Program-made: the position numbers and the translations under genes
Origin: Akkermansiaceae bacterium
GTDB taxonomy: Bacteria; Verrucomicrobiota; Verrucomicrobiia; Verrucomicrobiales; Akkermansiaceae
NCBI GenBank assembly: GCA_019634595.1
Contig: JAHCBC010000001.1
Span: 1,116,001 to 1,180,000, forward strand
DNA: 64,000 nucleotides
Direction: 5' to 3'
Notes under the pieces: generated by a model
The model's input: only the letters and a program-made list of their open reading frames with translations
Told to the model about the DNA's origin: nothing
Databases searched by the model: none
Shown here: positions 50,120 to 53,801 of the stretch, piece by piece
How positions within the stretch are numbered: the stretch's first letter is position 1
How the letters are laid out: the number at the start of each line of letters is the position of its first letter

Positions 50120-51940
50120 TCAGGCCTGCGGGGCCTTCTCGGCCGCTGGTGCCGCCTTCGGATCCTTGTAGGTGGACTGCACATAGACCTCGCGCAGCAG
50201 CTTGAAGTCGATCTGGCAGGGGCTGTTGGCCATGAGGTCCGCGCCCTTGTTGTTTTTCGGGAAGGCGATCACCTCGCGGATGCTGTCCTCACCGGCGACC
50301 AGCATGGCGATGCGGTCGAGGCCGAGCGCAAGGCCACCGTGCGGAGGCGCGCCGAAGCGGAAGGCATCCAGGATGTGGCCGAACTTGATCTGCTGTTCCT
50401 CCGCGTCCACGCCCAGAACGGTGAACATCTTCGCCTGCAGGTCCTTTTCATGGATCCGGATGGAACCACCGCCCAGCTCATAGCCGTTCAGCACGACGTC
50501 ATAGGCCACGGCGCGGACGTCCGCATACTCACCGGCTTCGAGCTTGGCGATGTCGTCAGGGTTCGGGCGGGTGAACGGGTGGTGCACGGCGACCCAGTGG
50601 CCGCTCTCCTCGTCATGGGCGAGCAGCGGGAAATCGACGACCCACAGGAAGTTGTAGGCGGAGGAGTCCTTCACCAGTCCCATCATGTCCGCGATCTCCA
50701 CGCGGACGCGGCCGAGGATGGTGCTGACGCTCTCGCGCTTGCCCGCGGCGAAGAAGACGATGTCGCCTTCCGCGAGGCCGAGCTTGGCAACGACGGCTTC
50801 CTTTTCGGAGTCGGTGAAGATCTTCCAGAGGGGGCTCTTGTATTCGCCGTTCTCCAGCTTGATGAAAGCCAGGTTCTTCACCGGCAGGCCTGCCTGCACG
50901 GCGATCTCGTTGAGGCGGTTCATCTGGCCGGTGGTGATGCCGGCGAAGCCCTTCGCGTTGATGGCACGGACCACGCCGCCGCCGTCGATGATGCTGCGGA
51001 AGATCTTGAACTCGGTCGTGGCGAAGACATCGCCCAGATCCGTGATCTTCATGTCATAGCGGGTGTCCGGCTTGTCGGAGCCGTAGATGTCCTCCGCGTC
51101 GCGGTAGGTCATGCGCGGGAACGGGGTCGGCACGTCGATGCCGAGGCCCGCCTTGAACATGGAGGCGAGCAGGCCTTCCACCAGCTTGATGATGTCTTCC
51201 TGGCTGACGAAGCTGGCTTCGATGTCGATCTGGGTGAACTCCGGCTGGCGGTCCGCGCGCAGGTCCTCGTCACGGAAGCAACGGGCGATCTGGAAATACT
51301 TCTCCAGGCCTGCGACCATCATGAGCTGCTTGTACTGCTGGGGAGCCTGCGGCAGCGCGTAGAAGCGGCCCGGGTTCAGGCGGGATGGAACGAGGAAGTC
51401 CCGCGCGCCTTCCGGAGTCGGGTTGGAAAGGATCGGCGTCTCCACCTCGAAGAATCCGCTCTCGTCCAGATAGCGGCGGGCGGCGGAAGTGATGACGGCA
51501 CGCTGGCGGATGTTCTTGCTCATGCGCGGGCGGCGCAGGTCGAGGTAGCGGTACTTCATCCGCAGGTCCTCGTTGGACAGCTCCTTGTCGAGCTGGAACG
51601 GCAGCACCTCCGCCTTGTTCACGATCGTAAGTGTCTCCGCGACGATCTCGATGGTGCCGGTGGCGAGCTTCGAGTTGGTGGTGTCCACTTCGTCCGTCTT
51701 GAGGCGGGCCTCCACCTTGCCGGAAATCTGGACCACATCCTCCACGCGGAGCGTGTGGGAGACATCGGCGGCTTCCTTGGAGATTTCCGAGCGGAAGACA
51801 CACTGGGTCACCCCCTCCCGGTCACGGAGGTCGATGAAGATCACCCCGCCCTGGTCACGGGCCGAATTGACCCAACCGATCAGGGTAACGGTTTTACCGA
51901 TGTCGGATTCGCGGAGTTCGTTGCAATGATGTGTGCGCAT
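50120..51940 (-). CDS. aspS: aspartyl-tRNA synthetase, 606 aa
   Basis: Class IIb synthetase. N-terminal OB-fold (GKTVTLIGWVNSARDQGGVI; FIDLRDREGVTQCVF), motif 1 area (GFFEVETPILSNPTPEGARD), motif 2 with FRDEDLRADRQPEFTQIDIE, the bacterial GAD insertion in the middle, and motif 3 (GLALGLDRIAMLVAGEDSIR). Length fits bacterial AspRS. Whether it is discriminating or makes Asp-tRNA(Asn) as well cannot be read directly. An ATG at 51940 begins MRTHHCNELRESDIGKT; the earlier ATG at 51961 lies in repeat DNA. The gene is followed by a clear terminator. Confidence 0.96.
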   Translation of the reverse strand: MRTHHCNELRESDIGKTVTLIGWVNSARDQGGVIFIDLRDREGVTQCVFRSEISKEAADVSHTLRVEDVVQISGKVEARLKTDEVDTTNSKLATGTIEIVAETLTIVNKAEVLPFQLDKELSNEDLRMKYRYLDLRRPRMSKNIRQRAVITSAARRYLDESGFFEVETPILSNPTPEGARDFLVPSRLNPGRFYALPQAPQQYKQLMMVAGLEKYFQIARCFRDEDLRADRQPEFTQIDIEASFVSQEDIIKLVEGLLASMFKAGLGIDVPTPFPRMTYRDAEDIYGSDKPDTRYDMKITDLGDVFATTEFKIFRSIIDGGGVVRAINAKGFAGITTGQMNRLNEIAVQAGLPVKNLAFIKLENGEYKSPLWKIFTDSEKEAVVAKLGLAEGDIVFFAAGKRESVSTILGRVRVEIADMMGLVKDSSAYNFLWVVDFPLLAHDEESGHWVAVHHPFTRPNPDDIAKLEAGEYADVRAVAYDVVLNGYELGGGSIRIHEKDLQAKMFTVLGVDAEEQQIKFGHILDAFRFGAPPHGGLALGLDRIAMLVAGEDSIREVIAFPKNNKGADLMANSPCQIDFKLLREVYVQSTYKDPKAAPAAEKAPQA

Positions 51941-51957
51941 GGGAGAGAAGAAATCAT

Positions 51958-51996
51958 TCAACCACAGATGAACAGGATGTACACAGATGGAAGAAT
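51958..51996. repeat. inverted repeat, left arm, downstream of GxxExxY gene
   Basis: CAACCACAGATGAACAGGAT and GTACACAGATGGAAGA match, in inverted orientation, the sequence at 52400-52442 with few changes. These ends bracket the GxxExxY gene. Confidence 0.8.
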
Positions 51997-52005
51997 GGAT
52001 GGGAT

Positions 52006-52428
52006 TCAGGATTGGAGGAGGGGTGGTTCGGGTGGCGTCAGGGTTACCCGTTTGAATTGGAGCTTGGCGTATTTGAAATTGAGGATGAGTCCGACGTTGA
52101 GGCCGGTTGCGCGCAAATAGTTCAGCATCCGTCCGATTTCCACGTCGCCGATGCGCTCGATGGTCTTCGTTTCGACGATGACTTTTCCGAATACCACCAG
52201 ATCCGGTATATACTCACCGACTTTGACCTGCCGATAGTGAATGGGATACCGGCTCTGCTGCTGAAAGGGGATTCCTTGATGAAGAAACTCGACGGTCAAC
52301 GCCTGTTCATACGGCTTTTCGTGGAAGCCGTGGCCGAGAGAATTCAGGACCGTGAAAGAGCACCCGATGATTTTCTCGGTCTCTTTTACCAGAATCCCAT
52401 CTCTTCCATCTGCGTACATCCCGTTCAT
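52006..52428 (-). CDS. GxxExxY protein, PD-(D/E)XK nuclease-like, about 140 aa
   Basis: Member of the GxxExxY family: the name-giving motif is GFHEKPYEQAL. Further conserved parts are KIIGCSFTVLNSLGHG, FLHQGIPFQQQSRYPIHY, and a nuclease-like core EYIPDLVVFGKVIVETKTIE with Asp and Glu-x-Lys. A nuclease role is plausible but unproven in this family. The start is uncertain: ATG at 52428 or 52419 is possible and both lie in the flanking repeat, so the first ~10 residues are translated repeat. It sits between aspS and hisS, with its 5' end 17 bases from the hisS stop. Confidence 0.85.
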   Translation of the reverse strand: MNGMYADGRDGILVKETEKIIGCSFTVLNSLGHGFHEKPYEQALTVEFLHQGIPFQQQSRYPIHYRQVKVGEYIPDLVVFGKVIVETKTIERIGDVEIGRMLNYLRATGLNVGLILNFKYAKLQFKRVTLTPPEPPLLQS

Positions 52429-52442
52429 CTGTGGTTGGATTA
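52400..52442. repeat. inverted repeat, right arm, upstream of GxxExxY gene
   Basis: CATCTCTTCCATCTGCGTAC and ATCCCGTTCATCTGTGGTTG mirror 51958-51996. It contains the start codons of the GxxExxY gene and touches the 3' end of hisS. Confidence 0.8.
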
Positions 52443-52444
52443 CG

Positions 52445-53743
52445 TCAAGCAAGCAACGGACCGTCCGGCTGGTGCATCAGGCTGGTGATCCATCCGACGG
52501 CGTTTTCGGCGCTGCCGGTGGCTTCGGTGCGGCTGGAGAGGATCTTTGCTTTCAGTTCGGGGTATTCTGAGCCGACGACGACGGCGAACCTCGCACCGGC
52601 TTTCTCGGCGTTCTGGAACTGCTTGCCGACCTTGACGTTCCCGGCGAGGGCGTAGTCGGCGGAGATGCCGGCACGGCGCAGGTCGGTGACGAGCTTCAGG
52701 CTTTCACCGCGCTTCGTCTCATCCGCCACGACGACATAGACATCGCACCCGGCGGCGTTGCGCTGCAGCCAGACTTCCATCTGCATGTTGGCGTGCGGGG
52801 TTTCCTCGATGAGGTTGCGGATCACGTAGTCCCCCATCGCGAAGCCGGTCGCGGGGAGATCCACCGCGCCTTCGGAAATGGTGGCGATCAGCGTGTCATA
52901 GCGACCACCACCCGCGACGGCGCGCATGGATTTCCTGGAGTCGAACACCTCGAACACCACGCCCGTGTAGTAGGCGAGGCCGCGGACAATGGAGAGGTCC
53001 AGCTCGACGAAGTCGCCCAGGCCGCGGGAGGTCAGGTCCGCCTTGATGGCGGCGTAGGCGGCGGAGGCGTTCTCCGGATTCGCGATGAAGGCTTTCACCT
53101 CTTCGGCGGTGAGGCAAAAGGCGTCCAGCTTCTGCGCCAGCACCTCAGGCTTCTCCCGCTCGATCTTGTCGATGATGCCGAGAAAGTCCGGGATGCGGTC
53201 TTCGGAGATGCCTTTCGCGGTCGCGTAGTCGATCCACGCCTGGCGGTCGGAAACACGGACGACGAAGTCACCCTCCACGAAGCCGAAGGCCAGCATCGAC
53301 TCGATCGCCAGCGAGATCAGTTCCGCATCCGCCGCGGGTCCGGCTTCGCCGAAAATGTCCACGTTGAACTGGTGGAACTCGCGGCCACGGCCTTTCTGCG
53401 GCTTCTCATAGCGGAAGCACTGGCCGATCTCGAACCACTTGAGGGGCTTCGGGAAATTCCGCTGATGTTCCGCGATGAGGCGGGCCAGCGAGGCGGTCAC
53501 CTCCGGGCGCAGCGTCACATCACGGCCACCCTGGTCCTCGAACCGGAAAAGCTGGGAGGAAAGTTCGCCGCCGGACTTTTTCAGATAAAGACCGGTGTCC
53601 TCCAGGATCGGCGTTTCATATTCCACATAACCGCAGCGGCGGGCGACTCCGCGCCAGGTTTCGAACAAATAATTCCGGATCGCGCATTCACGGGGTGTGA
53701 AATCGCGGAATCCTGGAAGGGCTTGGAAAGCTAGTGCGGCCAT
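52445..53743 (-). CDS. hisS: histidyl-tRNA synthetase, 432 aa
   Basis: Class IIa synthetase charging tRNA(His). Motif 1 region GYVEYETPILEDTGLYLKKS, motif 2 with RLFRFEDQGGRDVTLRPEVT and FEIGQCFRYEKPQKGRGREF, motif 3 GGGRYDTLIATISEGAVDLP, and the histidine-binding VRGLAYYTGVVFEVFD. The C-terminal anticodon-binding domain follows (CDVYVVVADETKRGESLKLV). Length is typical. The start at 53743 gives MAALAFQALPGFRDFTPREC, the usual N-terminus; the gene lies upstream of aspS, separated only by the inserted GxxExxY cassette. Confidence 0.95.
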   Translation of the reverse strand: MAALAFQALPGFRDFTPRECAIRNYLFETWRGVARRCGYVEYETPILEDTGLYLKKSGGELSSQLFRFEDQGGRDVTLRPEVTASLARLIAEHQRNFPKPLKWFEIGQCFRYEKPQKGRGREFHQFNVDIFGEAGPAADAELISLAIESMLAFGFVEGDFVVRVSDRQAWIDYATAKGISEDRIPDFLGIIDKIEREKPEVLAQKLDAFCLTAEEVKAFIANPENASAAYAAIKADLTSRGLGDFVELDLSIVRGLAYYTGVVFEVFDSRKSMRAVAGGGRYDTLIATISEGAVDLPATGFAMGDYVIRNLIEETPHANMQMEVWLQRNAAGCDVYVVVADETKRGESLKLVTDLRRAGISADYALAGNVKVGKQFQNAEKAGARFAVVVGSEYPELKAKILSSRTEATGSAENAVGWITSLMHQPDGPLLA

Positions 53744-53801
53744 GGGCGGGCGGCGAGGATGCATGCCGGAACCGGCATTTCAAGACGGATTCTGGAGCAG
53801 G

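Follow-up and report, generated by a model that had tools for sequence, protein, structure and literature searches.

The window, the whole stretch of 64,000 nucleotides of Akkermansiaceae DNA analysed here, carries between hisS and aspS a small GxxExxY gene bounded by an inverted repeat (Table 1). The two arms of 39 nt are 92% complementary and spaced 407 nt apart, and the inverted-repeat score of 39 at the gene compares with a maximum of 13 for 25 random placements at the same locus. The original prediction had described inverted repeats of about 38 bases around a GxxExxY gene with the motifs GFHEKPY, PDLVV and ETK. The repeats are confirmed, all three motifs are present, and the protein lies above the cut-offs of both PF13366 (PDDEXK_3; E 1.8e-33, 115.8 bits against 22 in Pfam) and TIGR04256 (GxxExxY; E 1.1e-36, 125.7 bits against 35 in NCBIfam). 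The further claim that the right arm supplies the start codon holds if the ATG is used, because this first ATG (52428) lies in the arm; the listed open reading frame begins instead at a TTG (52452) that falls within hisS. Nor does the right arm abut the hisS stop codon (52445-52447), as had been stated, since 4 bases separate the two. The cassette sits between two intact genes with no host intron or intein, and an Rfam search of positions 51000-53500 returned no match.

Table 1. Features of the GxxExxY locus, in positions of the window.
Feature	Position	Strand	Remark
Left arm of the inverted repeat, ATTC-AACCACAGATG-AACAGGATG-TACACAGATG-GAAGA	51956..51994	no strand	units compared with relatives
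Right arm of the inverted repeat	52402..52440	no strand	includes the first ATG of the GxxExxY gene
GxxExxY gene from the first ATG, 140 aa	52006..52428	-	
Mechanical GxxExxY ORF from the TTG at 52452, 148 aa	52006..52452	-	
Conserved core codons of the GxxExxY gene	52165..52320	-	invariant or nearly invariant columns, alignment A3
E45 of GxxExxY	52318-52320	-	
D84 of PD	52201-52203	-	
E94-x-K96	52165-52173	-	
aspS, downstream neighbour	50120..51940	-	
hisS, upstream neighbour	52445..53764	-	stop codon 52445-52447

GxxExxY proteins are widespread and often present in multiple copies. Searches with Pfam and NCBIfam assigned the window protein to PDDEXK_3/GxxExxY only and gave no match to a DDE, HUH, serine or tyrosine transposase. 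In the one AlphaFold model built (68 sequences, pLDDT 88.7), the best match among solved structures is Cas4 SSO0001 (Z 9.5 over 98 residues), and other PD-(D/E)XK enzymes, including restriction enzymes, score Z 6-8 (6.8 for LHK-Exo and archaeal Hjc), where a Z below 8 may reflect a common arrangement only. E45, D84 and E94 are invariant in alignment A3 and K96 is nearly so, no cysteine stands among the invariant or nearly invariant columns, and the nearly invariant Q108 is an R in the window protein (IGRMLNY). By its core residues and modelled fold the domain, of about 115 residues, is thus a predicted PD-(D/E)XK nuclease. A sequence search of the PDB gave no match, PHROGs gave none, and the PADLOC models yielded 0 families at E <=0.1, an absence that is weak evidence given the 2023 library. 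The gene is under purifying selection, with a median dN/dS of about 0.09 in both clades of the protein found at this site in relatives (18 and 10 usable pairs, dS mostly >1; L164 and L175 omitted). These two of the 18 hisS-aspS genes look frameshifted near the C terminus, the genes being mostly intact.

The repeat is dispersed through the 5.09-Mb genome to which the window belongs. AACCACAGATG occurs 16 times, 8 per strand, against 0 for its reversed control (two of the occurrences, L009 and L010, look unrelated by eye), and the tandem-unit pattern matches 58 times on one strand and 53 on the other, where its reversed control matches 0 and 1 times. Hairpins of score >=18 were found at 14 of 24 inspected loci, which include the window's own element, some of the others being single or degraded arms. 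These hairpins take the form TTCAACCACAGATGAACGCAGATGGACACAGAT-loop-ATCTGTGTCCATCTGCGTTCATCTGTGGTTGAA, with loops of 9 bp to about 100 bp, and at the inspected loci their ends read, by eye, TTCAACC...GGTTGAA; five palindromes folded as DNA gave hairpins with z of -8.4 to -11.7. One solo element (C5:95411-95538) has the inside sequence GATGAAGAGAATGGATGGGGAATG in common with the window element, as a deletion derivative would. Beside the many gene-less CAACCACAGATGAAC palindromes, one further GxxExxY gene, the only other one found in this genome, has a different repeat type: it lies in what, judging by eye from the sequence, we take for the gap between nuoK and nuoL, and its arms carry ACCACGGATTTCACGGATTATACGGATT. 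This type has 13 matches at <=1 mismatch (control 0), several of them in visible palindromes. The loop of one palindrome of this type (C1:1106408-1106596) holds a complete palindrome of a third type, with CACTGATT units, as a nested copy.

Further repeats were noticed beside some of these elements. CCAACGATCAGGGTCTATTCTCCCTAATGTAGG follows the solo palindromes L005 (C1:1089586) and L019 (C1:58325), outside the palindromes, and L019 has the inverse of this sequence, CTACATTAGGGAGA, on its opposite side, which gives the look of one repeat nested in another. The sequence GAAACCGTGGCTGCGGCGTCCCGCCGC..., of about 50 bp, flanks solo palindrome L017 (C7:4872) and has some 30 matches in the nearest relative (G034), some of them as inverted pairs; it is another dispersed repeat family. 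CATGCGAAGCCAAGCGGAATAAATTCCGCGGTCCCAGTCCGG is common to two places near elements on C1, L032 and L326.

The window cassette is no local curiosity, as the pairing of gene and repeat recurs across many phyla. With an inverted repeat counted as flanking at score >=18, 78 of the 86 distinct GxxExxY genes of the genus are flanked (61/68 away from hisS-aspS); GxxExxY genes, flanked or not, occur in 63 of 73 genus genomes, with up to 8 per genome. In a multi-phylum contig collection 54 of 80 loci pass, L081, L126 and L132 being included despite short flanks, against 12 of 3200 random placements, and a profile-based count of the same collection gives 56 of 78 genes (81 domains, with 3 omitted for short flanks), while control ORFs of 100-200 aa at the collection's loci are flanked in 6 of 342 cases. 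The records concerned are named Verrucomicrobia, Planctomycetes, Chloroflexi, Acidobacteria, several Proteobacteria, Bacteroidota and Myxococcales, and also include a cyanobacterium, archaeal Methanothrix and others; in Methanothrix, L110 passes (score 26) and L103 fails (score 11). Among thirty further loci from the phylum, 26 are flanked against 0 of 2270 random placements. One query GxxExxY protein matches 8 of 72,556 plasmid records (L159 and L160 are plasmid loci) and 0 of 50,697 phage records, and IMG/VR viral contigs hold one locus, L342. GxxExxY genes without flanking repeats include L064, L074, L111, L140, L146, L159 (Prevotella nigrescens) and others; L111, L140, L146 and L159 may have been domesticated or may belong to a separate lineage. 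Some genes in the phylum (L305, L309, L314) have ends of another type, ACCACCCGCT...CTGGAGAAAACAGCCGAGT or CTAGAGGACACAGAG, and paired GxxExxY domains within about 3 kb occur at L104, at L129 and at G233:C1:2378888-2380666.

The arms have a common form: a T-rich stretch, then ACC-R-C-N-R-A-[G/T], then at least two units R-C-N-R-A-[G/T], with T rare within the arms except at the last unit bases. Mismatches between arms of score >=20 are mostly purine changes, with G.T wobble commoner on the non-coding strand (216) than on the sense strand (144). A strand-specific RNA hairpin is unsupported, since wobble mismatches are not favoured on the sense strand. An intrinsic terminator was rejected on the base composition outside the arms, which is T-rich before ACC; whichever strand is read, the right arm is therefore followed by A-rich sequence and the hairpin by no U-run.

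The type of repeat follows the type of protein. The 18 proteins at hisS-aspS fall into clades A and B, about 52-65% identical between clades, and repeat types A and B agree with them in all 18 elements. In the genus group, with same-site pairs excluded and plasmid locus L160 included, 52 of 77 genes share their unit type with the nearest protein neighbour, whereas 200 shuffles averaged 11.5 and reached 23 at most. The contig-collection genes alone gave 32/51 (shuffle mean 19.5, maximum 30), and when the neighbour was forced from the other set the signal was weak, at 24 of the 128 domains (among 169) for which unit labels exist (shuffle mean 11.1, maximum 22). Whether the unit ends in G or in T distinguishes protein subfamilies almost without exception. 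When proteins were sorted into 'long' and 'short' by a regular expression, 81/81 'long' proteins had G-ending units and all 39 T-units belonged to 'short' ones, which also included 2 with A and 6 with G; we take these six to be mostly long-type proteins that the expression missed. The T side comes from one genus, and the Fisher p for the last base is therefore not phylogenetically independent. Covariation between arms at hisS-aspS is weak (p 0.010 and 0.079).

Gene and motif also go together at the level of whole genomes, as counted with one pattern of G-type units with a one-base spacer. In the 73 genus genomes CCRCVRAGNCRCVRAG is matched 1794 times and the control 442 times, and the motif count rises with gene number (Spearman 0.465, p 3e-5, against 0.03 for the control motif; kinship uncorrected). 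In the phylum, 193 genomes at least 90% complete were divided into 108 with the gene, which hold 1821 motifs against 309 controls, and 85 without it, which show almost no excess (225 against 205). A motif excess of at least 10 is found in 37/108 and 2/85 genomes, respectively (kinship uncorrected), and with this single pattern 71 of the 108 gene-bearing genomes remain below 10. The 34 genomes behind the contig-collection loci have 1526 motifs against 73 controls, with an excess of at least 10 in 21; of the seven whose gene scores below 18, six are poor in motifs and the seventh (L108) has 244. Genomes rich in motifs but with no gene detected are G012 (34) and G071 (32) in the genus, and G143 and G213 in the phylum.

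At hisS-aspS the element comes and goes among relatives. The site was compared in the best 30 of 73 genomes, a choice biased to filled sites, and after an unreadable one (L182) was dropped 29 gaps were counted. A full element is present in 18, the window's own included; one (L178) has an internally deleted copy with both arms kept in a 174-bp gap; the nearest relative (L163 in G034, flanks 95.4% identical) has a 53-bp gap with a 26-bp palindrome-like scar, TTAAACGACGGATGGCCGTGGTTGAA; and nine gaps of 31-70 bp hold no element. On a tree of the flanks, filled sites are intermingled with empty ones. L172 and L173, with flanks 91.7% identical (87-91% in the 75 bp adjoining the gap), carry elements of different clades whose proteins are 58% identical, so that the element has changed here and the genes beside it have not. 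The L180 gap matches the left spacer of L178 up to the element and reads as a near-precise element loss. Both checks proposed with the original prediction, this comparison and the search for other copies in the genome, were thus favourable, and its reading of the cassette as mobile or formerly mobile is supported.

Solo palindromes show turnover of a similar kind. The element is absent from G034 at L008, L043 and L046, where the surroundings are diverged or deleted, L012 is filled in both genomes, and L005, L013, L017 and L019 have no or partial matches only. At another orthologous solo element the nearest relative has the loop in the opposite orientation (reverse score 58, forward score 10, of 90), and the L039/L191 site has a palindrome in both genomes with unrelated loops. 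No target-site duplication was seen at hisS-aspS and four solo sites, where relatives are too diverged for a clean junction, nor was any of the sites compared, the G034 hisS-aspS gap and the four solo sites, a pristine empty one; no insertion junction was obtained because G034 has the scar at hisS-aspS, the solo surroundings are altered and L012 is filled.

We consider it probable that the window cassette represents a palindromic mobile element in its gene-bearing form, moved by its GxxExxY nuclease. The ends of such an element would be inverted repeats of about three tandem purine-rich units spaced 8-10 nt. The GxxExxY protein, as a minimal nuclease of the Cas4/lambda-exonuclease/RecB type, would recognise the units of its own element, probably on a hairpin or other single-stranded form, and cut there, after which host repair or replication would copy, move, invert or delete the element. 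Gene-less palindromes would be non-autonomous derivatives that arose by internal deletion and are served in trans. We infer the movement of the element from the comparison of related genomes, and likewise the role of the nuclease as mobilising enzyme and the hairpin-cutting step; unit binding, a preference for hairpins or cruciforms and copying by host repair are suggested by the class of fold, the presence of palindromes, the inverted loop and the deletions. A broader proposal, put forward tentatively as one that may or may not hold, is that GxxExxY nucleases are the mobilisers of an undescribed superfamily of palindromic elements in bacteria and archaea, each nuclease lineage with its own tandem-unit code, which cut cognate palindromes as hairpins or cruciforms, copy themselves into the break and leave dozens to hundreds of gene-less palindromes per genome.

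The same nuclease might act by homing, cutting existing cognate palindromes or their remnants so that repair copies the gene-bearing element into the break. Homing into its own repeats would explain how one element type can take the place of an unrelated one at a given site, and it fits the one-site replacements well: between host-like flanks, hisS-aspS has one or the other of two clades, a deletion copy, a scar or an empty gap, depending on the genome, and at the L039/L191 site the palindromes of the two genomes have unrelated loops. Most of this evidence is common to the mobile-element explanation, and we regard homing as rather unlikely, given that L172 and L173 are unlike in the short spacers beyond the arms as well, so that more than the interior was exchanged there, and that new sites must still arise, as at L320, where one palindrome type lies within another's loop. 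It is less probable again that the gene is a passenger or regulator, with the palindromes owing their movement to a different enzyme (a RAYT, an IS transposase or host repair) and the nuclease having been captured or merely binding them. The catalysis of the nuclease is only predicted, and G012 and G071 have many motifs and no detected gene, but the motif excess is almost nil in the 85 gene-less phylum genomes and the repeat type tracks the protein clade. A GTAG or CGTC tag at the palindrome end marks RAYT-linked repeats according to PMC3733652, and by eye GTAG is absent at the ends of the inspected hairpins in the window's own genome.

The strong purifying selection, the residence at hisS-aspS in many species and the near absence from phages and viral contigs would suit a host system in which the palindromes are binding sites of a nuclease that serves the cell, for example in repair, replication or chromosome organisation. 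The patchy occurrence among close relatives, the replacement by another clade, the several types per genome, the scars and the nested copies make this distinctly improbable. An explanation of the palindromes as ordinary intrinsic terminators, or as hairpins of a regulatory RNA, is hardly credible: the hairpins are strong and both gene-bearing sites of the genome lie in intergenic gaps, but the tie to one nuclease family would be left unexplained.

The link with cognate palindromes proposes a function for the GxxExxY family, accounts for a large class of intergenic repeats (ACCACAGAG.., ACCGCCAAG.., ACCACGGATT..) found in many phyla, and amounts to an enzyme-substrate code in which the repeat unit is predicted by the protein clade. 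In the PMC literature, as distinct from subscription papers and preprints, no description of a partnership between GxxExxY and palindromes was found, and the repeat words were not found in any relevant paper. GxxExxY is named there in two papers, incidentally in each, and PF13366 in a third; passages of PMC8934634, PMC12085832 and PMC9756366 describe no GxxExxY-palindrome element. The gene-less copies in the genome of the window, together with the recurrence of the pairing in many bacterial phyla and in archaea, point to an element of an apparently undescribed sort.

Among known systems, Cas4, lambda exonuclease and RecB-type nucleases resemble the GxxExxY protein in fold, with Cas4 SSO0001 the nearest (Z 9.5), whereas the protein studied here is a domain of about 115 residues with no conserved cysteine that stands alone between repeats. 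Homing endonucleases of the PD-(D/E)XK fold, such as I-SspI, are alike in being encoded by a small gene of the same fold that is patchy at a conserved site and changes apart from the host genes; the present element differs in having no intron or intein, inverted-repeat bounds, many unrelated sites and gene-less copies. IS elements with MITEs offer the parallel of terminal inverted repeats that bound an autonomous copy and also gene-less derivatives, to which L178 corresponds, but they use a known transposase, for example of the DDE type, where the window gene matches PDDEXK_3 only, and no target-site duplication was seen at the sites compared here, for which the relatives are diverged. By analogy, the way of life of the element resembles that of REP/REPIN sequences with RAYT and their TIRYT variants: there too, short palindromes are dispersed, a related repeat flanks the linked gene, and a genome holds several types, each with its own gene. 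REP/RAYT repeats have a GTAG/CGTC tag, where by eye there are here tandem purine-rich units and no tag, and the enzymes are unrelated, a tyrosine (Y1, HUH) transposase there and a predicted PD-(D/E)XK nuclease here. Mobilisation by the GxxExxY nuclease, if true, would be a new way of moving DNA that relies on a nuclease of the Cas4/RecB type, and a second, independent invention of the REP/RAYT way of acting.
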